IMG/VR virus record: IMGVR_UViG_3300006916_000373
Location: 1 to 24,282 of that record
Reading direction: 5' to 3' (one strand)
Length of the DNA stretch: 24,282 nucleotides
Source of the DNA: a virus
The position numbers were made by a program, and so were the translations under genes. Each line of letters starts with the position of its first letter. Within the stretch, counting starts at the first letter, position 1. This document shows, one piece after another, positions 672 through 24,282 of this stretch. The notes beneath the pieces are model-generated. The model did not search any database. It was given only the letters and a program-made list of their open reading frames with translations, and was not told where the DNA came from.

Positions 672-794
672 GTGATAAAACAAGGATTAGACAATATGAC
701 CATTCAAGGTAAAGATGCTCATATACTCGCCAAGCTATTGGACAAATTAGGAAAAGCATTTGAAAAAGCCGTAGAAAAGGAATCCAATGGCTAA
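672..794 (+). CDS. Small hypothetical protein, 40 aa
   Basis: A GTG start at 672, with GGAGG eight bases upstream, opens a 40-residue frame ending TAA at 792-794. The product reads MIKQGLDNMTIQGKDAHILA, then a helix KLLDKLGKAFEKAVEKE. It looks like one short beta strand plus an amphipathic helix. It overlaps the next fibre gene by eight bases, so the two are probably translationally coupled. Such a tiny frame could arise by chance, but the strong ribosome site, regular charged/hydrophobic pattern and coupled position favour a true gene. I do not recognise a function; a small companion of the fibre is the simplest idea. Confidence 0.55.
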   Translation: MIKQGLDNMTIQGKDAHILAKLLDKLGKAFEKAVEKESNG

Positions 795-6643: not shown

Positions 6644-7405
6644 ATGAAAATAAAAGAAAGAGTTGTCGTCTTCCCAGATGTACACTATCCACACCAAGAT
6701 GAAAAGGCATTTAAATGTGCTTTAAACGTTATAAAGGAATTAAAACCTACTGGATTCTTGCTATTAGGAGATTTTGTTGAAGGTGAATCAGTTAGTCATT
6801 GGCAATGGCGTAAAAAGAAACGCCCTCCTCTTGAGTACCAACTTCCTTTTATTGAAAAAGAAATCGAAGAAGGCAATAAAGGACTTGATAGGATTGATGA
6901 GGTTTTGGATAAGGTCAAGTGTAGAAAAAAACAATACGCTCAAGGCAATCATGAATTATGGTTCGACCACTTTGTCGAAGAAAACCCATACCTTGAACAT
7001 TATGGCTCCAGAACAGCATTCAAATTTGATGAACGTGGATACGAATGGCATGACTATGGTGATGTCTTTAAAGTGTTCGGAAGCAAATTATACGCTTATC
7101 ACGGAGGACACTTTATGGGAGTTGCCCATGCAAGAACTCACGCCTTACAAATGGGATGCAACATTATCTACGGACATACTCACGACAGTCAAAAAGCAGT
7201 CATCACCCACATCTCAGGACCACATATGGCATATTCAATGGGATGTTTAGCCGATATGAAAAAAGATTTTCTTAAAGGAAGACCAACAAACTGGACTCAC
7301 AATGTGGGTTTAGTAGATATCTTTACTAATGGAAATTTTAATCTTGTAGTTCTTGACATTACTAATGGCGTTACATCCTATGGAGGGAAAATTATAAGTG
7401 CCTAA
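6644..7405 (+). CDS. Calcineurin-like metallophosphoesterase, 253 aa
   Basis: All blocks of the superfamily are present in order: D-x-H at D12/H14 (FPDVHYPHQD), G-D at D43 (LLLGDFVEG), G-N-H-E at N102/H103 (QGNHELWF), a His block at H153/H156 (YHGGHF), and G-H-T-H at H178/H180. These residues bind the two-metal centre that hydrolyses phosphoesters. The substrate cannot be read from the motifs; nucleic acid ends, cyclic nucleotides or protein phosphate are all possible. The insert at about 48-95 is helical and basic (WQWRKKKRPPLEYQ). GAGGA lies just before the ATG. It is an enzyme gene placed among late structural and lysis genes; a role in the virion or in late host takeover is inference. Confidence 0.9.
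   Translation: MKIKERVVVFPDVHYPHQDEKAFKCALNVIKELKPTGFLLLGDFVEGESVSHWQWRKKKRPPLEYQLPFIEKEIEEGNKGLDRIDEVLDKVKCRKKQYAQGNHELWFDHFVEENPYLEHYGSRTAFKFDERGYEWHDYGDVFKVFGSKLYAYHGGHFMGVAHARTHALQMGCNIIYGHTHDSQKAVITHISGPHMAYSMGCLADMKKDFLKGRPTNWTHNVGLVDIFTNGNFNLVVLDITNGVTSYGGKIISA
7382..7387 (+). promoter_or_regulatory. Shine-Dalgarno GGAGGG for the GTG start at 7398
   Basis: GGAGGG lies ten bases before GTG 7398, within the end of the phosphoesterase gene. It supports this non-ATG start, which overlaps the upstream stop by eight bases. Confidence 0.65.
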
Positions 7406-10400
7406 ACAGTCAAAATCATTAAGAGACTTTAGCGGAGGAGTTGCTAAAGGAGTAGACGTTCTATCTTTAAAAGATAATCAAATGGCAGAATGCGTCAATT
7501 TTATACCAGACAATGTTGGTAAACTTAAAATTGTACCAAGCGAAGCCAACGCTTCTACAAATGAATTAAACACAGAGCTACCCGATGGCTATACAAGGAA
7601 TATTCATGCGTGGTCTGCTGATTTTAATTTATCAGACCCTAGCCAAAGTAATAACATAACAGCTCCAACTGTTACAGAAGTACAAGCATCCAAAAGAGCC
7701 AATATGGAGTTATACTTTACTCCTTTTCAGTCTCCTATTCCTGGCAGTGATTCAGAGGTTGATTATGCAGAAAGAGCATTAATAATCAAAGATGTTGATA
7801 GAGATGAGTACTTTATAAATACAGTGGTTAATAATCCCATGAGAGAAAACTTTGAATCAAAAGTTCCAAAGAATTCTATTCAAGGTCTAACACTAAATGC
7901 ATTAGAAAAGATGAGCCATAAGCATTATTTAGCATCTTCTGAAGAGGGTTCAGATTATACCGACCCTACTATTCCATGGCATTTTAAAACATTGGCTGGT
8001 GGCGATACTAGATTAAATGGCTCAAATACAGTAAAAGCTTCTTTTGGTCCAATTGATTCAAATAATGTTCATGGATTTGTAGGAAACAGTCCTCAGGCTG
8101 TAAACATGAATTCTGCTCTTGATAGCAATTGGCTTGATGCAAATAAGACATTTGAAAGTAATACAAACGTGTACATAGATACTCCAGTTGAAAACGCAAG
8201 GGGTAAGAATTTTAATTATGTTAATTCAGAAGGCAACACCGTTTATCCTACCACTAATAGAAATGGCGGTGCGTTTAAAATAGAATCTGTCCCCAATGGA
8301 GGTTCAGCTAACAATAGCACCAATACGATTGAATTTGGGCATACTGCTTTTAATGCTTCTGCATCTCAAAATGACGCATATGCTTATCGAATGGTCATTG
8401 AATGGGATTACTGGGGAAAGATAAATATTCGCTTTCCAAATGAGGAGCCTGATGGAGCTATTAACTATGCACATGGTAAAGGATTTAGACCTGTTGGTAA
8501 TAGTAGCACTGCTGACCCTAAAAAAACTATTGAAGGAACAACATATACTTATAAACAATTAGCTCCAATTTTTCACAAACACAGTTTTGAAGATAAATTC
8601 ACAAATCAGAATATTACCAATCAAATGGTTAGTGAAAGTGGGGCGTTTTATTACATGATGAATCACAATCCTTATTTTGGTGCATTTAGCGAATGGACAT
8701 ACAATCTTGACAATATTTCTAGATTTGAGACTGCTACGTACGGCGTTACTGTTAAGTATTATACAAACGTTACTCAAACAGCAGAAGCGTCAATTACAAG
8801 AACGTATGATGTCGAGATAGGGCAAACTGCAATGGACATAAGGGCAGGTTTATTTTACGATGCTGATGGAATAATTGCAGAGATACCTACAGACCATCAA
8901 GTCAAATTTGAAATAGTAGGTGGTAAAGTTAGAATATTTCAAGACACGGATACTGTTAAGGCTTACGGAATAAAAGAGGTAACTGTTAGCAAGACAAACA
9001 TTGTAGACCATGGCGATAAGGTAACCCATGGTCAACGATATCAGCATTTAGTTGCAATTACAAATCAAAATTCAATGTCAACTGTATACTCAATGGAAAA
9101 TGACACATGGATAGATTGGCAAATGGATTTCAAATTCAATGAAACTGAATGGATAGGAACTGTAAATGTAGGAAACAACAGTACAAATGGAACGTATGCT
9201 ACAATGTCTACTGGTTCGCATCCTAGTTTAGTTGGAAAGCAAGTCAGAGGAACAGGTATTGCTCCAGGCACTACCATTACAGCTCAAAATACTGGAGTGT
9301 CTCCTGCTACGATAACCTTAAGCACTGCTAGTACTTCTGCTGTGTCGAATGCAACGGTTTATTATTGGGATTCATCTACAAATGTAGACGTAACATATAT
9401 GGATGCAGAGGGGCATTTGTTTGGCAGTGATGCGACTTTTAAAGATTACAACAGACCTCAGTGGTTTGGGTATTTAGATTTAAATCATACTTATTTAAAG
9501 ACTCAGTTTGATAGCGTTAGTAATAATTACAATAGCAATAGTCCTCAAGTTGAAATGGCTAAGGGATTTACTACAGACGCTTTATGCCCTAATCCTTATA
9601 GAATAAAGATTACAAACAGTCCAGCCACAGCTTTAAAAGGTCAAGATACTCATATTGCCACAAAGGTAGATGGGCTTTTTTCTTTCTTAGATGGAACAAC
9701 AGATGAGACATTGGTAAAAAGCAACCCCAATCATTCCACTACTTGGGGAAGTCATCCCTTAGGAATAAAGATTCAATACGATTGGCTAGATGGTCAGGAT
9801 AGCGAAGCTGGTTCTTTAATGCCAGGTTCTTTCTTAAAAAAAGAATTAACGGAGTTTTATTTTAGCTACGTATATGAAGGGGGATATGTAAGTCAACCTC
9901 AGCAATTCTATCAACATACCTACAATGCTGGAAACAGTGGAGCTGATTCAATAAATAAAGCTTTTTCTACTGCTCCAAAAGCAGATTCTTGTGCGTTAGG
10001 ATTGCACATTGGAATTGGTCCACAATTAATTAGCGGAAAAGGAAACAATGCTTCTTGGTCTGGATTATCAGAAAAAGATGGTGTACTAAACACTCGCTTA
10101 AAAGGGGTAGAGATATATGCTAGATTTAATAATACAGACCCAAATAATATTTATCTTATCTGTGAGGTCGATTTAAATAAAGGATGGAAGTCCTTTGCAA
10201 CAGGAACATGGAAAGAGTTTACAACTTTTGGCAATGTTTCTCATTATGGCACTAGCTACGCCAATACTTCAGGAGGTCCAGTAACAGACCATATTATTTA
10301 TAAGGCAGTACCAACGTTTGAAAGCTTTTACAATAGGTATCAATTAGCCTGGGACGAACCAATTGGGTTTGAAAGCGATGGAACTGGTTGGAAAACAGCT

Positions 10401-11150
10401 TGTGTTTTTAATAGAAGAGCTTATTATGGCAATGTTAGGATTAAAGGAAAGGACGACCAACTGAATTATTACCCTGACGGAATTCTAAAGTCAGCTTTGG
10501 GTATGTATGCTACGGTTGGAGAAAGCAATTTAATCGAAGCAACTGTGAACGATGGGGATGATATTGTAGCCTTAAGAGTTACAGGTAATAAATTATGTCA
10601 ATTCAAGAAGTATTCTCTAACCATAATGGGCATTAAAACGCTCGAGAATGGGGAGAATCGTGAGGAAATTGAAGAGACCCTACATCATGTTGGCTTAGAG
10701 AATGATAACCAGATTTGCGACACTCCTTATGGCTTGTTTTGGATTAGTCGAAGTGGTGTATATTTATACAATGGACAAAACTTTAAATCTTTAACATCAA
10801 ATTCAGAAGGCAGTCTTATTGATAAAAGCCAATGGGAGAATTTTTATGGAAAAAGAACTCATATTGGATATGATGCTTATTGGAATCAGGTTCATATTTG
10901 CAAAGACACTATTTCAAATACAGAAACCATTATATATAACTTTAATACTGGAGCTTTTACAGATGGATTGGGTATGTATGGAGGTGCAAAAAAGACTGGT
11001 TTTGTTACTGACAGAGAAGGGCATTTACTTTGGGCTGAACAAGTGGCTCAAGGTTCACAAGGAACTGCTGTAAACCCTAGTAAAACAAATAAATTAACGG
11101 AGCTAGGGAGCCAAATACAAACTGCTCCACCACCAGCATCGGGAGATTAA
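7398..11150 (+). CDS. Large tail structural protein (stopper/tubular-type), 1250 aa
   Basis: A GTG start gives MPKQSKSLRDFSGGVAKGVD, followed by V-L-S-L-K-D-N-Q-M-A-E and a 'PDNVGKLKI' strand. This N-terminus is like those of phage tail/neck proteins (x-DFSGG-(I/V/L)-N type) that sit near the portal. The body is beta-rich and long. Near residues 590-655 a VGKQVRGTGIAPGTTITA block followed by TITLSTAS is a recurrent small beta domain, probably inserted. The C-terminal 200 residues contain NDGDDIVALRV and GLFWISRSGVYLYNG, the repeated strand-turn pattern of a beta-propeller-like domain, as in T7 gp12-type tubular proteins. The last ~20 residues are polar and Pro-rich. Exact tail position is inferred; a virion structural role is well supported by motifs and context. 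Confidence 0.75.
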   Translation: MPKQSKSLRDFSGGVAKGVDVLSLKDNQMAECVNFIPDNVGKLKIVPSEANASTNELNTELPDGYTRNIHAWSADFNLSDPSQSNNITAPTVTEVQASKRANMELYFTPFQSPIPGSDSEVDYAERALIIKDVDRDEYFINTVVNNPMRENFESKVPKNSIQGLTLNALEKMSHKHYLASSEEGSDYTDPTIPWHFKTLAGGDTRLNGSNTVKASFGPIDSNNVHGFVGNSPQAVNMNSALDSNWLDANKTFESNTNVYIDTPVENARGKNFNYVNSEGNTVYPTTNRNGGAFKIESVPNGGSANNSTNTIEFGHTAFNASASQNDAYAYRMVIEWDYWGKINIRFPNEEPDGAINYAHGKGFRPVGNSSTADPKKTIEGTTYTYKQLAPIFHKHSFEDKFTNQNITNQMVSESGAFYYMMNHNPYFGAFSEWTYNLDNISRFETATYGVTVKYYTNVTQTAEASITRTYDVEIGQTAMDIRAGLFYDADGIIAEIPTDHQVKFEIVGGKVRIFQDTDTVKAYGIKEVTVSKTNIVDHGDKVTHGQRYQHLVAITNQNSMSTVYSMENDTWIDWQMDFKFNETEWIGTVNVGNNSTNGTYATMSTGSHPSLVGKQVRGTGIAPGTTITAQNTGVSPATITLSTASTSAVSNATVYYWDSSTNVDVTYMDAEGHLFGSDATFKDYNRPQWFGYLDLNHTYLKTQFDSVSNNYNSNSPQVEMAKGFTTDALCPNPYRIKITNSPATALKGQDTHIATKVDGLFSFLDGTTDETLVKSNPNHSTTWGSHPLGIKIQYDWLDGQDSEAGSLMPGSFLKKELTEFYFSYVYEGGYVSQPQQFYQHTYNAGNSGADSINKAFSTAPKADSCALGLHIGIGPQLISGKGNNASWSGLSEKDGVLNTRLKGVEIYARFNNTDPNNIYLICEVDLNKGWKSFATGTWKEFTTFGNVSHYGTSYANTSGGPVTDHIIYKAVPTFESFYNRYQLAWDEPIGFESDGTGWKTACVFNRRAYYGNVRIKGKDDQLNYYPDGILKSALGMYATVGESNLIEATVNDGDDIVALRVTGNKLCQFKKYSLTIMGIKTLENGENREEIEETLHHVGLENDNQICDTPYGLFWISRSGVYLYNGQNFKSLTSNSEGSLIDKSQWENFYGKRTHIGYDAYWNQVHICKDTISNTETIIYNFNTGAFTDGLGMYGGAKKTGFVTDREGHLLWAEQVAQGSQGTAVNPSKTNKLTELGSQIQTAPPPASGD

Positions 11151-11590
11151 TGGCAATACTATTAAAATCAACAACGTCAGATAGAAAAGCTATCTCTTCT
11201 GGTAAACTAATTACCAAGCATTACGACATGGGCGATATTAGTATTAATAAAAAATTCAACAGATGTAGTATTACTTACAAGATGCGTGATATTGGAATTA
11301 GTCCTTTAAAAATCACATATAGATTAGATGAAGCTGGTTCTTTTGTTGACTTCGATACAGTAAACGACAATGAGTTTTCTGTTTATGACAATGGAGCTAG
11401 GCTGTCCAGAACAAATGGAAAAATAAAAACCGCAGAATTTGATTTTATTAAAAACAATAAATACGGTAAAGTAGTTCAAATAAAAATTGCATATATCACA
11501 TCTGGTATGGGTTACAACTCAAGTACTTCCATAGACGATTTTGAACTTTCAGATATTACCTTTACTTACAGACCAATCAACAGGAATTAA
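11150..11590 (+). CDS. Small beta-rich structural protein, 146 aa
   Basis: ATG 11150 overlaps the stop of the large tail protein (TAATGG), so the pair is translationally coupled. The protein is almost wholly beta: alternating strands such as CSITYKMRDIGISPLKITYR and VVQIKIAYIT, a KHYDMGDISINKKF start, and a C-terminal FELSDITFTYRPINRN strand. There is no membrane segment and no catalytic motif. It looks like a jelly-roll or Ig-like sandwich that partners or caps the preceding large protein. In related phages this sort of strand-rich tail may be fused to the large protein; that is an inference. Function unknown; structural role likely. Confidence 0.65.
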   Translation: MAILLKSTTSDRKAISSGKLITKHYDMGDISINKKFNRCSITYKMRDIGISPLKITYRLDEAGSFVDFDTVNDNEFSVYDNGARLSRTNGKIKTAEFDFIKNNKYGKVVQIKIAYITSGMGYNSSTSIDDFELSDITFTYRPINRN

Positions 11591-11591
11591 C

Positions 11592-12086
11592 ATGGCAGAT
11601 AATTATTCAAAACATAGTAGTAAGTCAGACGTAGCCGATTATTGGGCGTATGATAGAAAAAAGAGATACAGAACAGACCTAGCATTAAAAGCTGGTCCAA
11701 CAGTTGGTGATTGGTTGGCTAAGGACTATAAAGCAACTAAGCTTGCAAAATCAAAAGCAGGGACCACAGTTCAAAAAGCAAAAACAGGAACCCAAAGCAA
11801 AGGACTGTTGTCCAAAGTGCTTACTTACGGTGATGATTCAGCTACTTTCTTAGGAGGTGCAGAGCAAGCTGTGGCAAAAGGAATAACTTCCCCAGTTACA
11901 GGTTTAGGAAGCTTGGCAACAAAGGCTGGATTTGCAAAAACTGGAGGCTTGCTAACTGGAGCAGGTACCGCAGTTCAAGGAGCATTAACATCAATGGGAC
12001 CAGTGGGTTGGGCTTTATTAGCAGGGACATTATTTATGGCTAATAAAGGTAAAGGTGGAGCAACAAAAATAAAAGGGAGTTACTAA
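11592..12086 (+). CDS. Gly/Ala-rich membrane-active internal virion protein, 164 aa
   Basis: The start is ATG 11592, six bases after AGGA; an in-frame ATG 51 bases earlier lies inside the preceding gene and lacks a ribosome site. The N-terminal 75 residues are polar and basic (DYWAYDRKKRYRTDLALK; then a Lys/Thr/Gly-rich stretch). The C-terminal half is Gly/Ala-rich, and residues 119-150 (GGLLTGAGTAVQGALTSMGP plus VGWALLAGTLFM) could insert in a membrane. Short basic proteins with such glycine-rich membrane segments are typical of phage ejection (internal core) proteins, like T7 gp14. It opens a coupled block leading to the giant protein. The role in DNA ejection is inferred from composition and position, not from a family motif. 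Confidence 0.65.
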   Translation: MADNYSKHSSKSDVADYWAYDRKKRYRTDLALKAGPTVGDWLAKDYKATKLAKSKAGTTVQKAKTGTQSKGLLSKVLTYGDDSATFLGGAEQAVAKGITSPVTGLGSLATKAGFAKTGGLLTGAGTAVQGALTSMGPVGWALLAGTLFMANKGKGGATKIKGSY

Positions 12087-12541
12087 TGTCTAAAACATAC
12101 AATGAGGCAGAAGCATGGGCTCTTGGTTCAGGAAGTAAAGCTGGAAGATGGTGGGATACTTGGATTGGAAGAGACGGTTTCTTTTCATTTCTTGGTGGGT
12201 CAAAAGCAAGAAAACAAAGAAATGTGATTTCAAGTATTAGTAGGGAAATAGCAAATATAGAAAAGAGAAAAGGAGACATTTTTCCAAACGCAATGGGCAA
12301 TTTTAATAGAAGGACCATGAGCGATTGGAATGCTCTTCAAAGTAAGAACTCTGGTTCTCCTCTTACTCTGGCTACTGACACAGGAAAGAATTTTAATTTT
12401 CAAAATCAAATTTCAACAGCAGTTAATAACACAAACGCTTCATTAACAGACACAATTGGCAAGGCACAAGACAGATTATGGGCTCAAGAAGACCAAATAG
12501 CTAATTTAAAAGCAGAACAAGAATCAATAAGGAATTCATAA
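12086..12541 (+). CDS. Probable internal virion protein, 151 aa
   Basis: ATG 12086 overlaps the previous stop (TAATG). The first 45 residues are Trp/Gly/Phe-rich with basic residues (GRWWDTWIGRDGFFSFLGGS, then KARKQR), suggesting a membrane-surface segment. The remainder is helical: VISSISREIANIEKRKGD, a Ser/Asn/Thr-rich linker near 90-115, and a terminal coiled coil (DRLWAQEDQIANLKAEQE). I do not recognise a family. Its position between the Gly-rich protein and the coiled-coil protein, all coupled to the giant gene, suggests a component of the ejected internal complex. Confidence 0.6.
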   Translation: MSKTYNEAEAWALGSGSKAGRWWDTWIGRDGFFSFLGGSKARKQRNVISSISREIANIEKRKGDIFPNAMGNFNRRTMSDWNALQSKNSGSPLTLATDTGKNFNFQNQISTAVNNTNASLTDTIGKAQDRLWAQEDQIANLKAEQESIRNS

Positions 12542-12542
12542 C

Positions 12543-13604
12543 ATGGCACAAGATGACGCAGTATTAGAAATATTAGGCTCGCTTTTAGGTGGGGCAATGC
12601 AAGGCAGTATGCAAAGCGATGCTGTCGATAAACAGATTCAAGCGAATGAGGATATTACCTTATTAAAAGATTCTTTGGGCATGGGAAACATGAGGTTGCA
12701 AGACTCTTTAAATAGAGAGAACGCACTGCTTCAAGACTCATTAAGTCGAGATGCAGAGATGAGTAAACTTCAAATGCAAGATTCATTAGCAAACGATAGC
12801 TATCAACAAAATCAGTTATTTGCAGACTCTTTACGCACAAAGAATCAATCAACGATAGATTCAATGAAACAGGTGATGCAAGACGATAGTCAAGCACATG
12901 ACATGGACTTACAAAGAACCAGGTCTCTTTTAGGGCTTATTCCTGCTCAAACTTCTCTTGCTACACAAGGAATAGCAGATGACATTTCATCTCTTGACCA
13001 GAAATACGGTGCAGTACAGGCTAAAATGGCGTTGCGTAATCAGGGAATTGCAGATGCAAAGTCAACTCCTATTGACCTTGAGCATTTAAGAGGTAAAAAA
13101 TTAAGAGAGTTCTTTGATGAGTCTCCTTTTATGGGTCTAAATGAATCAGATATTATTGATAGTTACAATGATGCTAAGACAAATGAAAGACAACCATTGG
13201 ATTTTGCAATAAATACAGCCATCAAGCTTCCTGCCAGTAACCCAAAAAGACAAAGTATGGTCAAATTAGTAGACGATATGCTTGAAAAACTTGGAGTTAC
13301 GTATAATGAAGCAGGTGAAAGGCAGACTGGTGGTATTTACGATGACTTTACTGATGGCGATTTTGGACTAGGCGGAGGCACAGACCCTCAGGGACAATCA
13401 GCCAAAGCAATTATTGAAGAGCTAGAAACGTATAGGACCATGCTTTCTGGTGGAGAAAAAAGCATTGACCAGTTATATGAGATTTCTCCTGAAGAACGAG
13501 AACTTTATGATTCTTATGGTGTTACTAAAGGTGCAAAGAAAAAAGAGATAAGAGACTTGGAAAGAGACGTTATTACAAAGTTAATTGAGCAATTAAGTAA
13601 ATGA
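12543..13604 (+). CDS. Coiled-coil internal virion protein with D-S-L repeats, 353 aa
   Basis: ATG 12543 follows the previous stop by one base, with AGGA nine bases upstream. The N-terminus AVLEILGSLLGGAMQGSMQS is a Gly/Ala/Met-rich helix. From residue 43 to 108 there is a repeat with D-S-L at 43, 54, 65, 80 and 95 and D-S-M at 106, i.e. spacings 11, 11, 15, 15, 11, which points to a right-handed coiled coil. Residues 125-353 are helical and polar with a short acidic Gly-rich region near 267-282 (YDDFTDGDFGLGGGTD). The stop overlaps the giant gene's start (ATGA), so translation is coupled. A T7 gp15/N4-like internal protein is the likely role, from layout only. Confidence 0.65.
   Translation: MAQDDAVLEILGSLLGGAMQGSMQSDAVDKQIQANEDITLLKDSLGMGNMRLQDSLNRENALLQDSLSRDAEMSKLQMQDSLANDSYQQNQLFADSLRTKNQSTIDSMKQVMQDDSQAHDMDLQRTRSLLGLIPAQTSLATQGIADDISSLDQKYGAVQAKMALRNQGIADAKSTPIDLEHLRGKKLREFFDESPFMGLNESDIIDSYNDAKTNERQPLDFAINTAIKLPASNPKRQSMVKLVDDMLEKLGVTYNEAGERQTGGIYDDFTDGDFGLGGGTDPQGQSAKAIIEELETYRTMLSGGEKSIDQLYEISPEERELYDSYGVTKGAKKKEIRDLERDVITKLIEQLSK
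12669..12866 (+). repeat. Hendecad/15-residue D-S-L repeat (protein level)
   Basis: Six copies of (Q/K/A/I)-D-S-(L/M) lie at residues 43, 54, 65, 80, 95 and 106 of the 353-aa protein, spaced 11, 11, 15, 15 and 11. The DNA core is roughly aagaytcnttr. Both 11/3 and 15/4 periods suit a right-handed helix bundle. Confidence 0.7.
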
Positions 13605-16600
13605 CCCCTTATGAAACTAGGGTAAAATTAAGAGCTTATCGTTTTAACAACTCTCGTTTTAGCCCAGAAGAAGCTTCTGAATTAGAAAGATACGCTAAAT
13701 TGTATGGCGTGCCTTTTGGAAAGAAAGGTACAGAGCTACCTCAAAACGCTCCTCAAAGCAATGTTCTATCTCAGTTTAGTTCAGGATTTACAGAAGGGTT
13801 TCTTGGTCCTATTGCAATGGGTGGCTGGTCTGAAGACCCACAAGACGAATTTCAATCTATTGCCCACAGCGTAGGGCATTTATTAGGATTTGCATTCCCT
13901 ATGGCTGGTAGCCTTGTTTCATTTGGGGGCTCAGGTATAGCAAGGCTGGGGTTAATGGGCACTGGAAAAGTTGCTAGAGGATTTCAATCTGCAGGTAAAA
14001 CTGTAGGTAGCGTTGGGCAGGCTATGAAAAAAGGAAAATCTGTACCTTTATTCGTTGGCGATAAGGCAGTAGATGCCACAAAAAAGATAATGGCAAACGC
14101 TGGTTTTGAAGCTGGGAAATATCTTAAGGCAGGTGAAGCAGTCACTCATAAAGCTAAGTTGATTGATATGGCATTTCAAGCACAGCATTTATCTGTGGCA
14201 AGTGCTGTAAGTGGTATGTGGAATGGGCAAGATGATGAAGTAGATAATTTAATATTTGGAGCAGTTGCAGGAGGATTCTTTGGAGGATTGGGAAACTTTG
14301 TTCGTATAGGAAATATGGTTCAACATCCTAATAAAGTTGTTAGTGACGCAGGGAAACGTTCCTTATGGCAACATTCTAAAGAATTTTCTAATACATTATG
14401 GGATAATAGAGGGCAAATCCTAAGAGGAGCATTAGGTTCTGCATTTCAAGGTGGAATGGCAACAGCTCAAGGTGCTCCAACTGCTACGCAAATATATGAA
14501 TATGGATTGGGTGCTTTTTTTGGGTATGGTGCTCACGGTGTTGTAGAAAAGAAATCAACAGAATTTTTTAATAGGTACAATGAAAAGAAAGAAGACGGTA
14601 TTTTAAAAAGAGACTTTACAGAAATGAGAGATATGCTTAATTCTGAAGCATATAAAGAATTACCATTGGAATCTCAACAACTTGTTAAAGAAAAGTATTC
14701 TCAGCATATAGGTGATATCTGGGATAGAATGGAAAATTCAAAATTAGATAGAAATGACCCAGATTCTGTAGCAAGTGTAGTGTTGGCAGAAAAAATAGTA
14801 GAGCCTTACAATGAAGCTTTAAATAAAAAAGCAGAAGATTTTGGAAAGAAAGTAGAAAACCTTGAACCTCACGAAATAGCAGAAGTAAAAGCAGAGTTAC
14901 TTGATATGGTACCTAGGTCTTATAGAAAACAGCAAGAAATGAATATAATTGCTGAAGGGGTTATGAGGCAAATACGTGACCCTAAGATTGAACCAGAAGG
15001 AAAGGTTAAGGAAATTGCAGATAAGCTTACACCTGAAGAGCTTGCACAAGTAAAAGAAGGATACATAGACCCACTTGAAAAAAGAATTAAAGAGCATTTT
15101 GAAGAACTACCAAAAGAAAAAATAGAAGTAACCAGTCAAGATATACTTAAAGCAGAAGAGGTAATCCTTTCAGACCAACCTGAAGTAATTGTTGAACCAG
15201 TAATAAAACGATTTTTAAATCAACTGCAAAAAGAATCCGATATTTACGATGGCAATGAAGTGCTAGAGCACGCTGTAAAAACTTACAATGAGTTAATCCC
15301 AAAGACAGAAGGTGGTAAAAAAGATACACGATTCATCCCTGTTCGTGGAATGGTAAAAGAATACATACAAATCGTCCAAGACAAATTTCCAGGAATTAGA
15401 GTAACCCCTGAAATGCAGAACAGTTTAACCCAAATGTTCACAAGACTATCGCAAGGCATTTTACGACCTATTGTTAGCTTTAATAAAACAAAGAAAAAAA
15501 CATCGAGCATATGGGGCTTTAATGCCCTAAAGAAAAAGGTAGTAGGGTATGAGCCTAGGTCTGCTGATGAAAAAATGCATGAAAAACTTTGGGGAGATGA
15601 GGTTACTGTAAGAGAATTCGCAGAGATTGTTGACAAAAAAGGCAATACTTACGTCACTTTAAAACCATATGAAAGAGTATGGAATAGTAAAACAAGACAA
15701 TTTGAAATGGTCATGTCAAAAGAAGACTGGCTAAATGTGACCAAAGGATTAAATAAAAAAAATCAGTACCTCAAGATACCCAAAAAAGATGGAGGGGTTG
15801 AAAGAATCTATGAGTACCACCCTGAAACCCAAAATTTTGAATTAAAAACAATTATAAATGAAGTCGTAAAGAAATCAAACAGTAAGTTAATTACCAAAAA
15901 CCTTCTTAATAAATACATTGAAAAAGATTATAAAGTCTGGTTAGAAACTATGGGTTATGACCCTGTAAAAGACAAAGCAATTATTGAAAATAAAGGATTA
16001 CGTAATCTATATAATAAGGCATTCAAATCGAATTATCTCTATGAAAAGAATTGGAACTTTAAAAGTGCTATTGCTCGAGTAAAACGTGAAGCATTGTTGT
16101 CTTCAAAGTCATTCTACGAACAAGACTCTAAATTCTTTAAAGACATCACCAAGGGTACTGGTGAAATTAATATTATAGCCATAGAAGCAGAAAAGAACTT
16201 ACTGAGTAGAGCTGGCGAGATTGGTAAAAAGTGGCTTAATGTAGAAGGAAAACAGCCAGAAACATTCTGGACTGTTGATAAGAACGGAAAACTGGTTAAG
16301 CAGGCTTGGGAAAGCAAGATTGATGGCTGGTTGGTTATGCATTCAGACCTGTACAAAAGGTTTATGGAGGCAAACGGATTTAAAGGGACAGATATGTCTC
16401 ATATGAAACCAGCAGTAGCAGTTACCATGCCAGATGGAAGCTTATTCTTAGTTAAAGGAGGAGTTCATCCTGGTGCAAAGGCTTACAACGATGCAATGCC
16501 TAGTAAAAATTCAATGATAGTAGTAACCTCTGCAATTAAAGCTATGCCAGAAGGAACAAAAGTATATAGAGGGCAGGCTAAGAAGAATGGTAAATACGAA

Positions 16601-19600
16601 ATAAAGGATTACGATGGTCCTAGTCTAAAAATGAAAGTAGAGGACTTTAGAATTAACTTTGGAGTGTATGGCGATAAACATTCAGCAGAGCCCACTACTA
16701 TAAAAAAACAAATGCATTCTTTCTTTGATAGCTTGACCATGAGCAAAGAAGGCTATCAAGAATTCATGGATGCTATTCACCACCAAACTGTTCATGGTTC
16801 TGATATTGCAAACAACTATATAAAATCCCTTAAAGAAAACCCTGATGCATTACCACCTCAAGGTTTTAAAGTATCAGAATTAAGCGATAAAGACTTTATT
16901 CGAGTTATTAATAACCCAAATCACAAACTGCACGAATCTTTGAATAAGGATATCTTTAAAAAGATTAAAAAACTAGAAAAAGCAGAAGAATTTGAAGGTG
17001 CTGTGTATGAAGAGTTAAAAGAATATGCTAATAATTTTGAACGATGGTATCGAGCTACTGGTTATAATCCTGTATCTGCCATCATAAACAACAGTTTATA
17101 CGAGAAGTCTGTTCATATTTATCGTATGAATAAATTCACAAATCCAGAATGGAAAAACTCAGGAAGTGGCTGGGTGGCTGGTGTAGACCCAGTAATGGAA
17201 TCCTTAACTGGGGGTATTAAAAAGAATACAAGCTATGATTTTTTTGAAGATGGCAAATTGGTCAAAAGAAAAGTTGGTCATTTTAAAGTGGGACATAGCC
17301 ACAGAAAAATGAAGGTAAAATGGATAGGAAAAGACAAAGAAATAGAACTAGAAAAAGCTTGGGAGGAATTTAAGGCTGAAAAAGAGCCTTTATTAAAAGC
17401 TAGAATGAGAAATAAGCTAATGTTTGCGGTTATGAGGGTACCAGCAAACGCTATTTCAGGCACAAGAGGCTTATTGTTTGATGGATTTGCTAGGTCAGAT
17501 GTTGATTTAGCCAATTGGGGCGTTTATATGAGGGGCAGAGACCACTTTTATATTGACGGTGCAGACGTAGATGGTGATAAAGTGTTCTTTTATCAGGGTT
17601 TGCCTGAAAAATATATGCAAGATTTGGTCAAAAACGACAGTTTTTTAGAAAGAGTTAAGGGTGATAAGAGCATTTTCTTTGAAAATAAAGCAGAAAAGAT
17701 GGACAAGCTCTTTAAAAGTGAAGTTTCTAAAGCAGATTTAGACTATGTAAAAAACAATCCATTGGGTCAATGGTCTCCTGGTGCTTTACGCAAAACAGGA
17801 ATGAGTGCGTATGAAGGTAAAAAAGGATTAGAACAAATTGTTAATGCAAAATCGTTTTTGCAAAATGTTTTAGCAGATATAATTACCAATAAAAAAGGCA
17901 ATCTAAATGTTGATATTTATAAAAAGAATAGAGAAGGACAAACAAAATGGGTAGGTACCCTTGTAGGAAAGACTAGTGAAAAGCAACTATATAAAGAAGA
18001 TGGATATTATGTAGTAGGTACAGAAGCACATAGTAGAACTGCTGATAGTGCAAATTATTGGAATATGGCTAACCCTCAAGAATTAATACAAATTGTAACT
18101 AATTCTGCTTTTGAAAAACTTACTTTTATTCCAAGTAATAAAAAAGCTAAACCAAGGAAAGGTACATTACAGGATATTAAAAATTCTTTAGAGTATAAAC
18201 ATCTACATGAGTTAAACAGAAAGTTGTATGGTTATGATTATGCAAACAATAGAGCGTTTACTATTTCAGAGATACAAGACGCTGTAAGACCTTTTACTGG
18301 AGCCCCAAAGACAATGAGTGCTATCGTAGATATTGCCCATAAAGTAAGTCAAAATGAAATGAACATTGACCCTCTACGTCATTTTAATTACGAGACGTAC
18401 AGGGAATCCATAAGGTTATTAAGCAGGGAGTTACTAAGGGACAAGAACGTTTTAAACTACATTACTAGAAAGAACCTAAGAGTAATGCCATTGTATTATA
18501 GTATTGACTATAAGGCAGTATATGGTGCCATGAAAAAGTATCCTGATTTTATAACAAAGAGTGGTAAAAAACTTGGTCAGGTCCCTGAAAAAGGAGGAAG
18601 GAAAGAAGATAAAGAGCCCTATAGAGATTTTTTATGGGAAGCTTTAGAGTCTCCTAATAGCGAAGGATTAACACCTTTAGAAGTAAGGCTGGGCGATACT
18701 GGAAAAAAGATTCAAAGAACTTTTAATAATATGTTCAGTAATAAAAGATGGGAACCAGGTCAAAACCCTAAACCTATTATGCGTTATAGCTCAAGAGTTG
18801 AAAAAGAATACAAGATAAACGACTCTTACGATGTTTGGAGTGCTTTACAGCTTAATATGAAAGGCAAGGCATTAGATAGGGCATTAAAAGGAGCAGGGCA
18901 TACTGTAGAAAAAGGTCAAATTCCTTATGAACGCATCAATGAGATTGCCAATCGTATTGTTAATGGCGAGCAAATAACTGGTAATAATATTGAGATTCTT
19001 GAAAATGAGAAATGGTCCAAGCAAATACAAAAAGCAGTAGACGATATCCAAGCTGGAAAGCAACCAAAGACTCAATCTGAAAGTAAGTTCTTAGTATTAA
19101 GGGATATTATAGCAAGACAAGCAGAAGCAATAAAGATACAGTTTAACCATACTTTTAGAAACGAGAATCAACGTGTGTTTGAAAACGAACAGGAAGCAAA
19201 CAATCTTATTAGAAAAGACGTAGTTGAAATCAGTAAGATTGCAAAAGAACTAAAAATCAAACCAGAGGTAGCGGTTGATTATTACTATAATTTCCTTTTA
19301 TCAAGTTTACGTCCTCAACCTGTTCGATTAGAGGGACTAATAAGAAATTTAAATGGAAGAATAGCCACTGCTGAAAAAAGAGGCGAGCTTGATAAGGTAG
19401 AAATATTAAAAGCTGAAAAAGAGCGAACAAGGGCTCAATACGAAAATACCAGCACACCTAGATTTATTTGGTCAATGGATGCGATACCTGACCGTGTCAA
19501 AGCTCAGTTTATGAAAGGGTATGCTGATACTTTTGATTTATTAAATACTGTTAGCCCTGAGAAGGCTGGAAAAGAAGTTACTGATTATCTATCAAAATCA

Positions 19601-22600
19601 AAAAAAGATACCAAGCTAGGAGAAATAGATAGCAATATTGACGGAGAAAGAATAGCTGAAGTAGAAATTGACAGGTTGTTTAAACCCACAGAAGTAGGTG
19701 GTGTTGAAGTAGCAAAAGAAACAAAAGGCAAAGCACAAAACATACCCAATGATATTCCTCAAGTATTAAGGAGCATTACGCAAAGCTTAAAGACCTTACC
19801 TGATGGTGCAATTCTTCGATTTGAGGACCTGTATACTTACATGAAAGCACAACAAGGAGATGGACCAACTAGTATTAAAATGGCAACATGGGATGATATA
19901 AGAAACTTTAACAGGTTTTTAAAAGATATAGTTAACTCTACCAATCAGACAGGCAAAGTAAAAAAACTATACAACTTCTTATTTCCAGATACAGTAGGAA
20001 AAAAACAAGCTGGTCACGACCTTGATTTGTTGTTTAAAATGAAAACACCTATACGCAATGCCAAAGACTTTGGTCTTGCAACCATTAAAGTGCCTTTGTC
20101 CTCTATGTCCTTTCTTCAGAAGGTTGGAGGTCAAATGAGAGAGCTAGAAGATTCAATTAAAAATGGCATGGTAGAGTCTTTATTTACAGGAGTCTCTGTT
20201 AAAGCTGAATTAGAAGCTATACCAAATGGCATTCAATCCTTTACTGACTTGTTTATGTTTGCTCAAAAGAGTATGAACCGTGAAAGAGCGTGGAAAACAG
20301 AAGACGTTGCTTTTTACGAACAGGAATGGGCAAATACATTGAAACTCTGGGAAAGTAAATACGAAGGAAAAACATTTAAAATAACTAGAAATGGGAAAGT
20401 AATAGAAAGAACATCAGAAGAACTGATAAAAGACATTCAAGAACAGCAAGGAAGATTTTTAAAAAACTTTTATGAAAGCTATTTAGGTGCTGGAGTCATT
20501 GATGCAGAAGGTGAATTCCAAAGAGTTGATTGGAAGCGTATTGATGAGAAAATGGAATGGGCTGGTAACGGTTTATTTATACATGACTTTATACGATACG
20601 ATAAAAATGGAAGATTTGATATAGAAAACTTTCAAAAAAAGGTTATGGACAACGTAGAAACCTTTGGTGTAAATGCCCTAAATAAAATGCTAGGCAATCG
20701 CAACAACCCTATGAGTACTGAATTATTAAACAGAGTACAGCATGAAATAGCGATGGAGGAACACTTACTTAGTAAAAAAATAAAAAGAAATTCAGATGAA
20801 GCAAAAAATGCTAGGGTTGCTTGGAGAAAGGCAAATGAATTCTTTGGCATAGGTAGAGTAGGAAGTGAAGGTAAGGATGGATTTGTTACAGAGTATTTCC
20901 CCCAAATGAATCACGATACTAAAAAATTAAAACCTTGGGTACAAGAACAGCAGTTAAAGTTAAAAGCCAAATTAGAAAACTATGTAAATGACCTAACTCA
21001 AGGTGGTAAGACCGTTAAAGAAGACTCCGTTTATAAAATACCTAAGCGTTACCAATTCAAAGAACTAGAATTGCAAGCATTAACAGGTAGAATGCCTAAA
21101 GAAAAACAAAAGGAAATCTGGGGGGTTTATGGAGCAAACAACATAAAGCAAACCCTTATAGACCTAAAACTTGCAAGTCAAAATGCTGACTATCAATTGT
21201 ATCTTGGGCAAAGAGTAGAAAGTGCTAATGGGCAATCTGATTACCTTGTAAACTTTTTAAACGCTGAATTCCGTAAGGGAAAAGAACAGTGGAAAGATAT
21301 TAACGCTGAATATAGACCAGGTACAGGACAACAAAGAGGCGATACTCACGTTCCTCACTTTAGTTATGGCTTTGAAGTACTAGAGGCTTACACAAACCAA
21401 TGGGTAAGCTCTTTATTTAAGAATATGAATGCTTTGACATTCCGTAAGGTCATTAATAATTACGAACAGAATAATGTTTTTGTTAAAGAGAACCCAGAAA
21501 TGGGCGATATGTGGGTTAACGAAATGAGAAAGTATGCTAGTAGCTTAATGGGAAAACCCAATGCATTGCCTACAAAGTATACTGGACTGACCATAGTAGA
21601 AAGAGCAAAATTAAAACAAAGAATAAAAGAATCCCCTGAAGGCATACAAAAAGAATGGGATAAAAGAAAAATAGAAAGAGACGATAAAATAAAAAAACAG
21701 TATGGCACTAGAACGTCTTTGTTTAATCCATTGCAAAATTTAGAATACAGAATGTCTGACCAGAATATGGTGGAATACTTAGATGCTAAATCACAGCAAT
21801 TAAACAAATGGGCTATACCAGGAATTAGTAAGAAGTTTCATGGAACACCTAAGGCTCCAAAGTTATTTGGAATGGATTTACCTACTTCTGAGAAAGCAAG
21901 ACATCAAGTCTTATACCAGATATTAAATAACATAGGTGCTTATGAATCAAAATTGTCTCTTATATCTCTACTTGCTCATCCTAAAACATACTTAGGTAAC
22001 GTAGTAGGTGGTAGCTCAAACACTATTACGAATATGGGTTTTAGCAAATTTAAAAGGGCTAGAGATGTTAAATGGCTGGTCAATAACGTATTTGCAGGAG
22101 CAAAATTAAAAGATGGGACTCCAATTACAGATAGGAATACCATACATAGATGGGTAGCTGAGATAGGTGCATTAGAATCTTTTTACATTAACGAAGCAAT
22201 GATGGATAAAAGATTGGACATTAAAAAACTAAAGCCTTTCTTTAAGGAAGTTTTTTCTAAAAGAGACATTACTGATGCTACTGTAATGGACTTAGCTAAG
22301 AAATACCAAGTAACAGATTCTATCCTATCTGCTGGTGGTTGGTTTATGAGAGCATCAGAAAGAACTCTACGTACAGACGCTTTTATTGCTCATTACTTAA
22401 ATGCAAGAGAAGCATTGGGGCAAATAATACCTAATATGCCCTTTGACCATCCTTATTTAACAGGAATGGCATTAAAGGGAGTAGAAGCTACTCAGTTTTT
22501 ATATCACAACGTAAATAGACCTGCTGTTGCTAGGTCTACAATGGGTAAAGTGTTTACAAGGTTTCAACCTTTTATGTGGAATTCTATTCGTTTTAGAAGA

Positions 22601-23083
22601 GATATTTACAAACAAGCAAAGATTTATGGATTCAATGATAAGAAATCTATCGACAGGTTAAAAAGATTAGCCATAATGGATTTATCTACTTTTGCTTTAG
22701 CCCAAGTATTTGTTGGTTCTTTATTTGATAGCATTCTTCCACCGCCTTTATCTTATGTACAAGATACTGCTGATTGGCTATTTGGAGATAAAAAAGCAAG
22801 AGAAAGAGCGTTCTTTAGTGCTTATCCTTCTCCAATACTTGCACCATTACAAGTAGCAACTGCTCCTATACATAGATACTGGATGCCACTTATGACTGCT
22901 CTTATAAATGGAGAGTGGGAACGATGGGCAAACTACTATACTTGGACAATGTTACCATTTGGAAGATTGGCACGAAGTACAATCATGACTCTAGAAAGAC
23001 CAGAAATGACTGCTGAATTTATGTTTGGTATCCCTGTCCATAAATTTGGAACTATGATAAGGAAAGATAACGATGGGACCTAA
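13601..23083 (+). CDS. Giant internal virion protein, candidate two-barrel virion RNA polymerase, 3160 aa
   Basis: One uninterrupted frame starts at ATG 13601, overlapping the upstream stop (ATGA). Residues 55-310 carry Gly-rich hydrophobic segments (about 86-120, SIAHSVGHLLGFAFPMAGSL; 213-240; 276-310), likely for membrane passage. Residues 320-560 are charged helices. At 905-1060 lie DGWLVMHSD (D908), GFKGTDMSHMKP (K928, K936) and GVYGDKH (K1026). At 1279-1326 lie R-x-P and DGADVDGDKVFFY, with DVDGD at 1322-1326. This D-x-D-G-D loop matches the catalytic signature of the second double-psi barrel in two-barrel RNA polymerases, and the upstream lysines could form the first barrel. The C-terminal half is helical, with LLAHPKTYLGNVVGG near 2790 and a hydrophobic stretch at about 3024-3060. 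A giant ejected protein is likely; polymerase activity is an inference from motifs. Confidence 0.8.
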   Translation: MTPYETRVKLRAYRFNNSRFSPEEASELERYAKLYGVPFGKKGTELPQNAPQSNVLSQFSSGFTEGFLGPIAMGGWSEDPQDEFQSIAHSVGHLLGFAFPMAGSLVSFGGSGIARLGLMGTGKVARGFQSAGKTVGSVGQAMKKGKSVPLFVGDKAVDATKKIMANAGFEAGKYLKAGEAVTHKAKLIDMAFQAQHLSVASAVSGMWNGQDDEVDNLIFGAVAGGFFGGLGNFVRIGNMVQHPNKVVSDAGKRSLWQHSKEFSNTLWDNRGQILRGALGSAFQGGMATAQGAPTATQIYEYGLGAFFGYGAHGVVEKKSTEFFNRYNEKKEDGILKRDFTEMRDMLNSEAYKELPLESQQLVKEKYSQHIGDIWDRMENSKLDRNDPDSVASVVLAEKIVEPYNEALNKKAEDFGKKVENLEPHEIAEVKAELLDMVPRSYRKQQEMNIIAEGVMRQIRDPKIEPEGKVKEIADKLTPEELAQVKEGYIDPLEKRIKEHFEELPKEKIEVTSQDILKAEEVILSDQPEVIVEPVIKRFLNQLQKESDIYDGNEVLEHAVKTYNELIPKTEGGKKDTRFIPVRGMVKEYIQIVQDKFPGIRVTPEMQNSLTQMFTRLSQGILRPIVSFNKTKKKTSSIWGFNALKKKVVGYEPRSADEKMHEKLWGDEVTVREFAEIVDKKGNTYVTLKPYERVWNSKTRQFEMVMSKEDWLNVTKGLNKKNQYLKIPKKDGGVERIYEYHPETQNFELKTIINEVVKKSNSKLITKNLLNKYIEKDYKVWLETMGYDPVKDKAIIENKGLRNLYNKAFKSNYLYEKNWNFKSAIARVKREALLSSKSFYEQDSKFFKDITKGTGEINIIAIEAEKNLLSRAGEIGKKWLNVEGKQPETFWTVDKNGKLVKQAWESKIDGWLVMHSDLYKRFMEANGFKGTDMSHMKPAVAVTMPDGSLFLVKGGVHPGAKAYNDAMPSKNSMIVVTSAIKAMPEGTKVYRGQAKKNGKYEIKDYDGPSLKMKVEDFRINFGVYGDKHSAEPTTIKKQMHSFFDSLTMSKEGYQEFMDAIHHQTVHGSDIANNYIKSLKENPDALPPQGFKVSELSDKDFIRVINNPNHKLHESLNKDIFKKIKKLEKAEEFEGAVYEELKEYANNFERWYRATGYNPVSAIINNSLYEKSVHIYRMNKFTNPEWKNSGSGWVAGVDPVMESLTGGIKKNTSYDFFEDGKLVKRKVGHFKVGHSHRKMKVKWIGKDKEIELEKAWEEFKAEKEPLLKARMRNKLMFAVMRVPANAISGTRGLLFDGFARSDVDLANWGVYMRGRDHFYIDGADVDGDKVFFYQGLPEKYMQDLVKNDSFLERVKGDKSIFFENKAEKMDKLFKSEVSKADLDYVKNNPLGQWSPGALRKTGMSAYEGKKGLEQIVNAKSFLQNVLADIITNKKGNLNVDIYKKNREGQTKWVGTLVGKTSEKQLYKEDGYYVVGTEAHSRTADSANYWNMANPQELIQIVTNSAFEKLTFIPSNKKAKPRKGTLQDIKNSLEYKHLHELNRKLYGYDYANNRAFTISEIQDAVRPFTGAPKTMSAIVDIAHKVSQNEMNIDPLRHFNYETYRESIRLLSRELLRDKNVLNYITRKNLRVMPLYYSIDYKAVYGAMKKYPDFITKSGKKLGQVPEKGGRKEDKEPYRDFLWEALESPNSEGLTPLEVRLGDTGKKIQRTFNNMFSNKRWEPGQNPKPIMRYSSRVEKEYKINDSYDVWSALQLNMKGKALDRALKGAGHTVEKGQIPYERINEIANRIVNGEQITGNNIEILENEKWSKQIQKAVDDIQAGKQPKTQSESKFLVLRDIIARQAEAIKIQFNHTFRNENQRVFENEQEANNLIRKDVVEISKIAKELKIKPEVAVDYYYNFLLSSLRPQPVRLEGLIRNLNGRIATAEKRGELDKVEILKAEKERTRAQYENTSTPRFIWSMDAIPDRVKAQFMKGYADTFDLLNTVSPEKAGKEVTDYLSKSKKDTKLGEIDSNIDGERIAEVEIDRLFKPTEVGGVEVAKETKGKAQNIPNDIPQVLRSITQSLKTLPDGAILRFEDLYTYMKAQQGDGPTSIKMATWDDIRNFNRFLKDIVNSTNQTGKVKKLYNFLFPDTVGKKQAGHDLDLLFKMKTPIRNAKDFGLATIKVPLSSMSFLQKVGGQMRELEDSIKNGMVESLFTGVSVKAELEAIPNGIQSFTDLFMFAQKSMNRERAWKTEDVAFYEQEWANTLKLWESKYEGKTFKITRNGKVIERTSEELIKDIQEQQGRFLKNFYESYLGAGVIDAEGEFQRVDWKRIDEKMEWAGNGLFIHDFIRYDKNGRFDIENFQKKVMDNVETFGVNALNKMLGNRNNPMSTELLNRVQHEIAMEEHLLSKKIKRNSDEAKNARVAWRKANEFFGIGRVGSEGKDGFVTEYFPQMNHDTKKLKPWVQEQQLKLKAKLENYVNDLTQGGKTVKEDSVYKIPKRYQFKELELQALTGRMPKEKQKEIWGVYGANNIKQTLIDLKLASQNADYQLYLGQRVESANGQSDYLVNFLNAEFRKGKEQWKDINAEYRPGTGQQRGDTHVPHFSYGFEVLEAYTNQWVSSLFKNMNALTFRKVINNYEQNNVFVKENPEMGDMWVNEMRKYASSLMGKPNALPTKYTGLTIVERAKLKQRIKESPEGIQKEWDKRKIERDDKIKKQYGTRTSLFNPLQNLEYRMSDQNMVEYLDAKSQQLNKWAIPGISKKFHGTPKAPKLFGMDLPTSEKARHQVLYQILNNIGAYESKLSLISLLAHPKTYLGNVVGGSSNTITNMGFSKFKRARDVKWLVNNVFAGAKLKDGTPITDRNTIHRWVAEIGALESFYINEAMMDKRLDIKKLKPFFKEVFSKRDITDATVMDLAKKYQVTDSILSAGGWFMRASERTLRTDAFIAHYLNAREALGQIIPNMPFDHPYLTGMALKGVEATQFLYHNVNRPAVARSTMGKVFTRFQPFMWNSIRFRRDIYKQAKIYGFNDKKSIDRLKRLAIMDLSTFALAQVFVGSLFDSILPPPLSYVQDTADWLFGDKKARERAFFSAYPSPILAPLQVATAPIHRYWMPLMTALINGEWERWANYYTWTMLPFGRLARSTIMTLERPEMTAEFMFGIPVHKFGTMIRKDNDGT
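16310..17620 (+). other. Candidate RNA polymerase catalytic core (two double-psi barrels)
   Basis: This part of the giant gene encodes about residues 904-1340. Seen: IDGWLVMHSDLYKRF, GFKGTDMSHMKP, FGVYGDKHSAEP, then MRVPANAISGTRG and YIDGADVDGDKVFFYQG. Known: in beta/beta', QDE-1, YonO and crAss-like gp66 polymerases, barrel one supplies lysines and barrel two supplies the Asp triad D-x-D-G-D that binds magnesium, in that order along a single-chain enzyme. Inferred: D1322, D1324 and D1326 are the triad. An EF-hand- or dockerin-like calcium loop is the main alternative, but the preceding R-x-P and the following V-F-F-Y strand favour the barrel. Confidence 0.55.
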
Positions 23084-24282
23084 AGAGCAAAAATATTATA
23101 GAGATTTACTTGAAAGCTTAGGCATAAAATTCAAATCTAAAGGAGTGCGTCTTGCAGGACCAAAGTATTATGGCGTAGAAGATTCAGAAATGACCTCTCC
23201 TTTAAGTAATAAAGAGTTTAAAAGAAGAAATTTTGCAGTAACTGAAGAAGGTAAAATTATACAAGCTGGAAATCCTGCATTAATTCCCACAGAAGTATAT
23301 CCTTCTCCTAGTGGTGCGGTAGCAAGCATTGCTACAGATGCTTTGGCTATGAAAAATCCAGCACTTGGATTAATAGGTGGGGCATTACTAGGTAGGTCTC
23401 CAAAAAAGACGATACCAGCAGAGAATGCCTCATTGGCATACGCCCCAAGCAACAAAACATATGATTATTATAACAACGTTTCTGTGACACCTAAAAGCAT
23501 AGACATCCCCAGACATACAGTAGCTTCAAGCACCCCACGTGATTTTGACCTATTTAAAGGGACAATAAAAGATACTAAGAAAAGATTAACTTTAACTCCT
23601 GAGCAATTAACGTCAAAAAAAGCTTTAGACGATGCAAAAATAAAAGCTCGTAATTTAGGAGAGTATAACAAACAGGTTGTTTATAATCCGCATACTAAGC
23701 TTCCTGAGGTTATTGACAATAGTGAATTTTTAAAACGCCTAGAAAGACAAGGTGATGACTACCCTTGGTTTGTAGATGAATTAGGTGATAACATTCCAAT
23801 GGACTGGAACTTAGACCAAATAAGAGGAATGGGTGGCTTTAGAAACGTAGTAGATAAAAATGCTGTGAACCAATTGCAATACCTTTCCCAAAGAGGATTA
23901 ATGCATGACATAGACCTTGGCACTCCCAGTGGATTTAAAGGAGAGCATTATTCTGATGCAATGCAAATAAAATACGATAACCCAGGTGAGGCAATAGAAG
24001 GCATTCAAAGAATTGCAAGGGATAACCCAGATAGGCATTATAAAGTAGGACAAACAGGTGGAGGGCTTAGAGTCTGGGACGTAACAAGGTATCCTATTAA
24101 AACACATGGAACAAGGGCAGTACCAGAAAGATTAAAAGACATGAAAGCAATGGGAAATGATGATTTTTATACAAATATGACCATTGGCAATAACATTGAA
24201 AGGATAAGGCAACAGTATAGAGACTTTGGTTTACCTGTTCCATCACAGGCTGAAATAAGAAAACACGGAATTCAGAATGATG
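23073..24282 (+). CDS. Large hypothetical phage protein downstream of the giant (3' partial)
   Basis: ATG 23073 lies inside the last 11 bases of the giant gene, with AAGGA upstream, and opens a frame of 403 codons that has not stopped at the window end. The protein starts MGPKEQKYYRDLLESLGIKF. Residues 84-107 (VASIATDALAMKNPALGLIG) are a weakly hydrophobic Gly/Ala stretch. The rest is polar and mixed alpha/beta, with FVDELGDNIPMDWNLDQIRG, YLSQRGLMHDIDLGTPSG and VGQTGGGLRVWDVTRYP. I recognise no family or catalytic motif. Coupling to the giant gene and the early Gly/Ala segment suggest another internal or ejected protein. Minus-strand frames across this DNA look like chance shadows. Confidence 0.75.
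   Translation, partial: MGPKEQKYYRDLLESLGIKFKSKGVRLAGPKYYGVEDSEMTSPLSNKEFKRRNFAVTEEGKIIQAGNPALIPTEVYPSPSGAVASIATDALAMKNPALGLIGGALLGRSPKKTIPAENASLAYAPSNKTYDYYNNVSVTPKSIDIPRHTVASSTPRDFDLFKGTIKDTKKRLTLTPEQLTSKKALDDAKIKARNLGEYNKQVVYNPHTKLPEVIDNSEFLKRLERQGDDYPWFVDELGDNIPMDWNLDQIRGMGGFRNVVDKNAVNQLQYLSQRGLMHDIDLGTPSGFKGEHYSDAMQIKYDNPGEAIEGIQRIARDNPDRHYKVGQTGGGLRVWDVTRYPIKTHGTRAVPERLKDMKAMGNDDFYTNMTIGNNIERIRQQYRDFGLPVPSQAEIRKHGIQND

Follow-up and report, generated by a model that had tools for sequence, protein, structure and literature searches.

A predicted two-barrel RNA polymerase within a giant, probably virion-borne protein of uncultured phages

The stretch of DNA analyzed here (the window, 24,282 bases, which is the entire virus record) encodes, among other proteins, one of 3160 residues, and this raises the question of what such a giant product contributes to the phage. 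The initial annotation, made from the letters alone, had proposed that it is a virion-packaged RNA polymerase of the two-barrel type, on the strength of a DVDGD motif at residues 1322-1326 and an upstream R-x-P at residues 1279-1281. Both motifs lie exactly where it had placed them, and the span that it had assigned to the polymerase (16310-17620) falls within the module delineated here, although the latter reaches further at both ends (Table 1).

Table 1. Features of the giant gene and of its neighbors in the window. The limits of the two barrels are our own reading of the strands in the model and are approximate.
Feature	Position	Strand	Basis
1250-aa structural-type protein, upstream	7398..11150	+	Position conserved in relatives; no PHROG or family match
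Four small genes (146, 181, 151 and 353 aa), directly 5' of the giant gene	11150..13604	+	Same layout in relatives
Giant protein with the predicted polymerase inside	13601..23083	+	Open frame, 3160 aa
Predicted two-barrel RNA polymerase module, aa ~811-1588	16031..18364	+	High-confidence model; this span aligns structurally with QDE-1 and further two-barrel polymerases
Barrel one (DPBB-B type), aa ~888-1012, with D908 G909, K936, K952 and K980	16262..16636	+	Model strands; near-invariant Lys (72 relatives); match to barrel one of a crAss-like RNAP
Barrel two (DPBB-A type), aa ~1187-1332	17159..17596	+	Model strands; crAss-like RNAPs matched at profile level (E 1.5e-5)
R-x-P (RVP, aa 1279-1281)	17435..17443	+	R and P unchanged across 72 relatives
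DVDGD (aa 1322-1326), predicted metal-binding Asp triad	17564..17578	+	Three Asp in 62/62 relatives >2000 aa (among the best 80 of 296)
Probable bridge helix, a long helix 3' of barrel two, aa ~1393-1430	17777..17890	+	38-residue model helix; conserved SPxxR...G(R/K)...L
C-terminal domain common to the whole family, aa ~2780-3150	21938..23050	+	Best-conserved stretch of the alignment
Next late gene, cut by the window end (533 aa in a longer contig)	23073..24282	+	ORF; longer contig

DVDGD is the sole D-x-D-x-D in the giant protein. When the protein was shuffled 20,000 times a D-x-D-G-D arose in 3.1% of the shuffles, and its combination with an R-x-P at the native spacing in just 0.055%; the pair is unlikely to have arisen by chance. 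The decisive evidence, which is much stronger than these shuffling statistics, is the conservation of the motif together with the fold of the region that contains it.

Direct searches with the window protein recovered only close kin (78-100% identity), and Pfam, PHROGs and the PDB chain sequences held no polymerase match for it. Accordingly, we collected relatives in two ways. IMG/VR was first scanned for DNA that would code for GAD[FLIMV]DGDK, which gave at least 120 stretches; among the matches listed, 99 encode proteins with the arrangement R-x-P ... [SA]G ... GADxDGDK, and the complete giant proteins of this set measure 2834-3218 residues. Over the module, the members of a window-like branch (V) are 33-85% identical to the window protein, and those of another (L) 16-20%. 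The second set was retrieved with the C-terminal 700 residues as the only bait, which was chosen to guard against circularity; it comprises 296 IMG/VR contigs encoding a relative, partly overlapping the first set. No account of this polymerase family turned up in literature searches of an open library, and scans of 50,697 phage records and of 84,980 genomes (the latter in two scans) recovered no member at the sensitivity used. In one relative (L067:3864-6443) residues 97-174, within the polymerase region, gave weak hits to acetyltransferases of the GNAT type (PHROG E 8.7e-4; Pfam below cut-off), which we do not trust and which would be either spurious or due to an inserted domain.

Examination of the 62 ORFs of more than 2000 residues among the best 80 of the 296 contigs revealed R-x-P...D-x-D-x-D in every one. 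The triad reads DLDGD in 27 of these, DVDGD in 25, DKDSD in nine and DLDAD in one, and the distance from the arginine of R-x-P to the triad is 39-44 residues in 61 and 55 in the remaining one. Only the three aspartates are fixed across these 62 ORFs, as would be predicted for a metal-binding catalytic triad, and the sister triads DLDGD, DVDGD and DKDSD tell the constrained positions of the catalytic loop from those free to vary. The valine of the window protein, previously regarded as a distinctive variant, is no such hallmark, for leucine and lysine occupy this position in sister branches. The DKDSD loop typifies a third branch (L165, L171, L172, L182, L190, L192, L204, L208), in which a lysine is situated between predicted metal-binding aspartates.

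To obtain the fold we modeled residues 800-1645 with AlphaFold2 using an alignment of 72 sequences (pLDDT 87.3, pTM 0.85). Superposition of this model shows two double-psi barrels in one chain, with the DPBB-B type preceding the DPBB-A type. All 14 Foldseek matches in the PDB at E<1e-3 are to QDE-1 or plant RDR2, and VIA-align likewise places QDE-1 (Z 17.7, 451 residues, 4.2 A) and RDR2 (Z 17.1) at the top, followed by P74-26 gp62 (Z 11.9, 417 residues), P23-45 gp96 (Z 11.0, 329 residues), gp66 of the crAss-like phage phi14:2 (Z 10.5, 567 residues) and, below these, the catalytic subunits of multisubunit RNA polymerases. Among the predicted viral structures of BFVD, unnamed proteins (A0A516LW39 and others, TM 0.68) rank highest, and proteins of crAss-like phages including phi14:2 come next. 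The lack of a barrel fold, or a match of this region to a calcium-binding or unrelated domain, would have spoken against the proposal; the model instead matches two-barrel polymerases. As for single-subunit RNA polymerases of the T7/N4 type, we rejected them as candidates, there being no Pfam match in the giant protein and the model resembling the two-barrel enzymes; a separate genome search for T7-type RNA polymerases was run without a positive control and carries no weight.

Homology to the crAss-like enzymes could be detected at the level of profiles. Comparison of the family profile with eight aligned crAss-like RNA polymerases gave a match over barrel two (E 1.5e-5), and the profile of the L branch matched them from barrel one through barrel two (E 1.9e-4, 343 columns), whereas a control profile of the C-terminal domain gave E 0.94. 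When the family profile was run against the whole genome of the crAss-like phage cr50_1, the 4775-aa RNA polymerase gene was matched at barrel one (E 1.1e-4), in a region where it shares an M...NIHM...SAxK.G-like stretch with the family. Against the single sequences of gp96, gp64 and gp66 the family profile gave nothing significant, the eight-sequence crAss-like alignment being needed.

The lysine blocks that had been put forward as evidence for barrel one fared unequally. The DG...KP block (D908 G909 with K936 P937) stands, in that the DG and the K are conserved within the family. The GDK block (residues 1024-1026), on the other hand, does not extend past close kin, and SEK takes its place in the other branch. 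Better candidates for the barrel-one lysines would be K952 and K980, which are near-invariant across 72 relatives and align with the crAss-like SAxK.G; they may correspond to K743 and K767, the barrel-one lysines of QDE-1 (PMC1750930). Taken together, the modeled fold, the profile homology with crAss-like enzymes over both barrels, and the invariance of the aspartates in an independently fetched set point to the module being, almost certainly, a two-barrel RNA polymerase, as had been proposed.

To better understand the role of this predicted polymerase we examined its gene contexts. Related contigs of 41-51 kb have, in this order, genes for the terminase and portal (PHROG E 1.3e-81 and 2.1e-61), the capsid (1e-15) and tail-type proteins; these are followed by metallophosphoesterase and peptidase-like genes, a structural-type protein of 1000-2200 residues, small proteins and the giant gene. 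The latter marks the end of the virion block in the contigs examined, and 3' of it most contigs have one more gene and then convergent early genes on the opposite strand, including a primase-helicase (in several contigs) and single-strand annealing proteins. Six contigs of this size (G001, G003, G004, G006, G007 and G010) each encode one copy of the polymerase, and in none of them is an A- or B-family DNA polymerase recognizable. Simple searches found no repeated promoter-like motif 5' of the early genes (nothing above shuffled controls) and no clear depletion of sigma-70-like sites. The window also codes, at 787-4416, for a 1209-aa protein with NVGIGT-x-P type repeats, which by eye resembles a tail spike or fiber and reaches the cut-off with no Pfam profile. 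The early block of G010 encodes a ThiF/E1-like protein (L226:15687-17162, minus strand; E 4.9e-13) beside a JAB-like protein (E 0.001), and the two look like a phage-borne pair for ubiquitin-type tagging.

An integrase is present in two of the six contigs and also in the virus of the window itself, on a contig of 27.6 kb; in all three a tyrosine integrase lies near the giant gene (G004:12680-13090, G006:32418-32786 and L009:16411-17307). The members that bear it are possibly temperate phages with a virion-type polymerase, which would be an unusual pairing.

The polymerase module starts about 800 residues into the giant protein, and the approximately 2300 further residues to which it is fused are kept across the family. 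For the C-terminal domain the only PHROG match is to the end of phrog_11358 (E 9.8e-5; 1.7e-7 in G003), a family of 3431-aa giant proteins without assigned function. No fold could be recognized for this domain, the AlphaFold2 model of the last 700 residues being too poor to search (pLDDT 62), and it therefore gives packaging no direct support. Nevertheless, the position of the gene and the precedents of the crAss-like phages and P23-45 make it very probable that the giant protein is packaged in the virion.

From the fold, the triad, the homology and the gene position, all obtained by computation, we infer catalysis, packaging, injection and an early-gene role. Barrel one would supply the conserved lysines, D1322, D1324 and D1326 of barrel two would hold the magnesium ions for RNA synthesis, and a long helix comes after barrel two. 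Built into a protein of about 3000 residues that is encoded with the virion proteins and ends in the family-wide stretch of about 370 residues, the polymerase would be packed in the particle, enter the host with the DNA and transcribe the first phage genes, as do the crAss-like gp66 and P23-45 gp96.

The same enzyme could instead be made and used inside the cell, for middle or late transcription. YonO and P23-45 gp64 set a precedent, being two-barrel RNA polymerases that act outside the virion (PMC5467207, PMC10770324), and an integrase-bearing phage could employ such a polymerase after induction. We consider this unlikely, however, given that the gene closes the virion block and that its polymerase is fused to some 2300 family-wide residues, unlike YonO (~100 kDa) and gp64 (616 aa). 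The two-barrel core is also common to PolD (PMC4996933), and with no A- or B-family DNA polymerase in the six contigs one might envisage a PolD-like DNA polymerase or primase that replicates the phage genome. Yet these phages have a separate primase-helicase among their early genes while the giant gene belongs to the virion block, RNA polymerases are the closest structural neighbors (PolD is missing from the structural matches listed, which is not evidence of its absence), and all three aspartates are kept as against the two invariant catalytic ones described for PolD (PMC4996933), which leaves a replicative role very improbable.

Nor do we give much credence to an inactive virion protein in which the polymerase fold survives for structural or DNA-binding purposes alone during ejection. 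The DKDSD branch, departing as it does from the usual glycine before the last aspartate, might be taken in its favor, but the three aspartates, the R-x-P and the barrel-one lysines remain fixed despite an overall identity of about 18%, which fits selection for catalysis. A packaged, single-chain, two-barrel DNA-dependent RNA polymerase that transcribes the first phage genes is the reading that we favor and consider probable.

With this predicted polymerase the single-chain two-barrel polymerases, a group that links phage enzymes, the polymerases of RNA interference and the catalytic core of cellular RNA polymerases, gain a large branch that had gone unannotated. Sequence searches of Pfam, PHROGs and the PDB fail to see it, even though 296 contigs of a single virus collection encode relatives. 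It suggests how uncultured phages may begin infection without the host polymerase, and defines a module of about 850 residues that is amenable to assay. More tentatively, and with considerable doubt, we raise the possibility that, among two-barrel RNA polymerases of the virion, these proteins form a major class of their own, the third, situated in the middle of an ejected protein of about 3000 residues in phages of about 50 kb that have no cultured member and of which some carry an integrase; if so, even temperate phages would bring along an early-gene polymerase, which could transcribe during genome entry.

Among known systems the nearest solved folds are those of the RNA-interference RNA polymerases QDE-1 and plant RDR2, which share both barrels and the helical part after them. 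These are nonetheless cellular enzymes of eukaryotes, which use RNA or DNA as template and have no significant sequence match to the family, for which phage transcription is expected. YonO of SPbeta (likened here by description) and gp64/gp62 of P23-45/P74-26 are, like the present module, single-chain two-barrel phage RNA polymerases, but small ones that are not part of the virion. In P23-45 gp96 (PDB 8H2M/8H2N), too, a two-barrel RNA polymerase is part of a giant protein; there it is fused to a virion tape measure of 5002 residues and transcribes the pre-early genes (PMC10770324); its polymerase is at the N-terminus rather than about 800 residues in, and the profile match is not significant.

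The gp66 of phi14:2 (PDB 6VR4; gp077 of KC821624, structural by MS/MS) is likewise a single-chain two-barrel RNA polymerase in a very large protein encoded among virion genes, and it is a virion component transcribing early genes (PMC7886860); the genes for such crAss-like virion enzymes measure 13-14 kb. The gp66-type enzymes and the present family have a common signature, M...h.h...SAxK.G ... R-x-P ... GxD-x-D-x-DK, though no pairwise sequence similarity is detectable. In barrel two most crAss-like enzymes read R-x-P ... GSD-F-D-I-DK and here it is R-x-P ... GAD-x-DGDK, so that the triads are mostly DFDID in the former as against DVDGD, DLDGD or DKDSD in the latter. The contigs of about 50 kb, compared with crAss-like genomes of about 100 kb, suggest phages of a different group from Crassvirales, and the family has a C-terminal domain of its own, with no match in six known phages tried in a search that lacked a positive control. 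Single-chain two-barrel RNA polymerases in giant virion proteins are thus already known from crAss-like phages and P23-45; what is new here is a highly divergent branch, set apart by a C-terminal domain of its own, by contigs of smaller size and by other triads.
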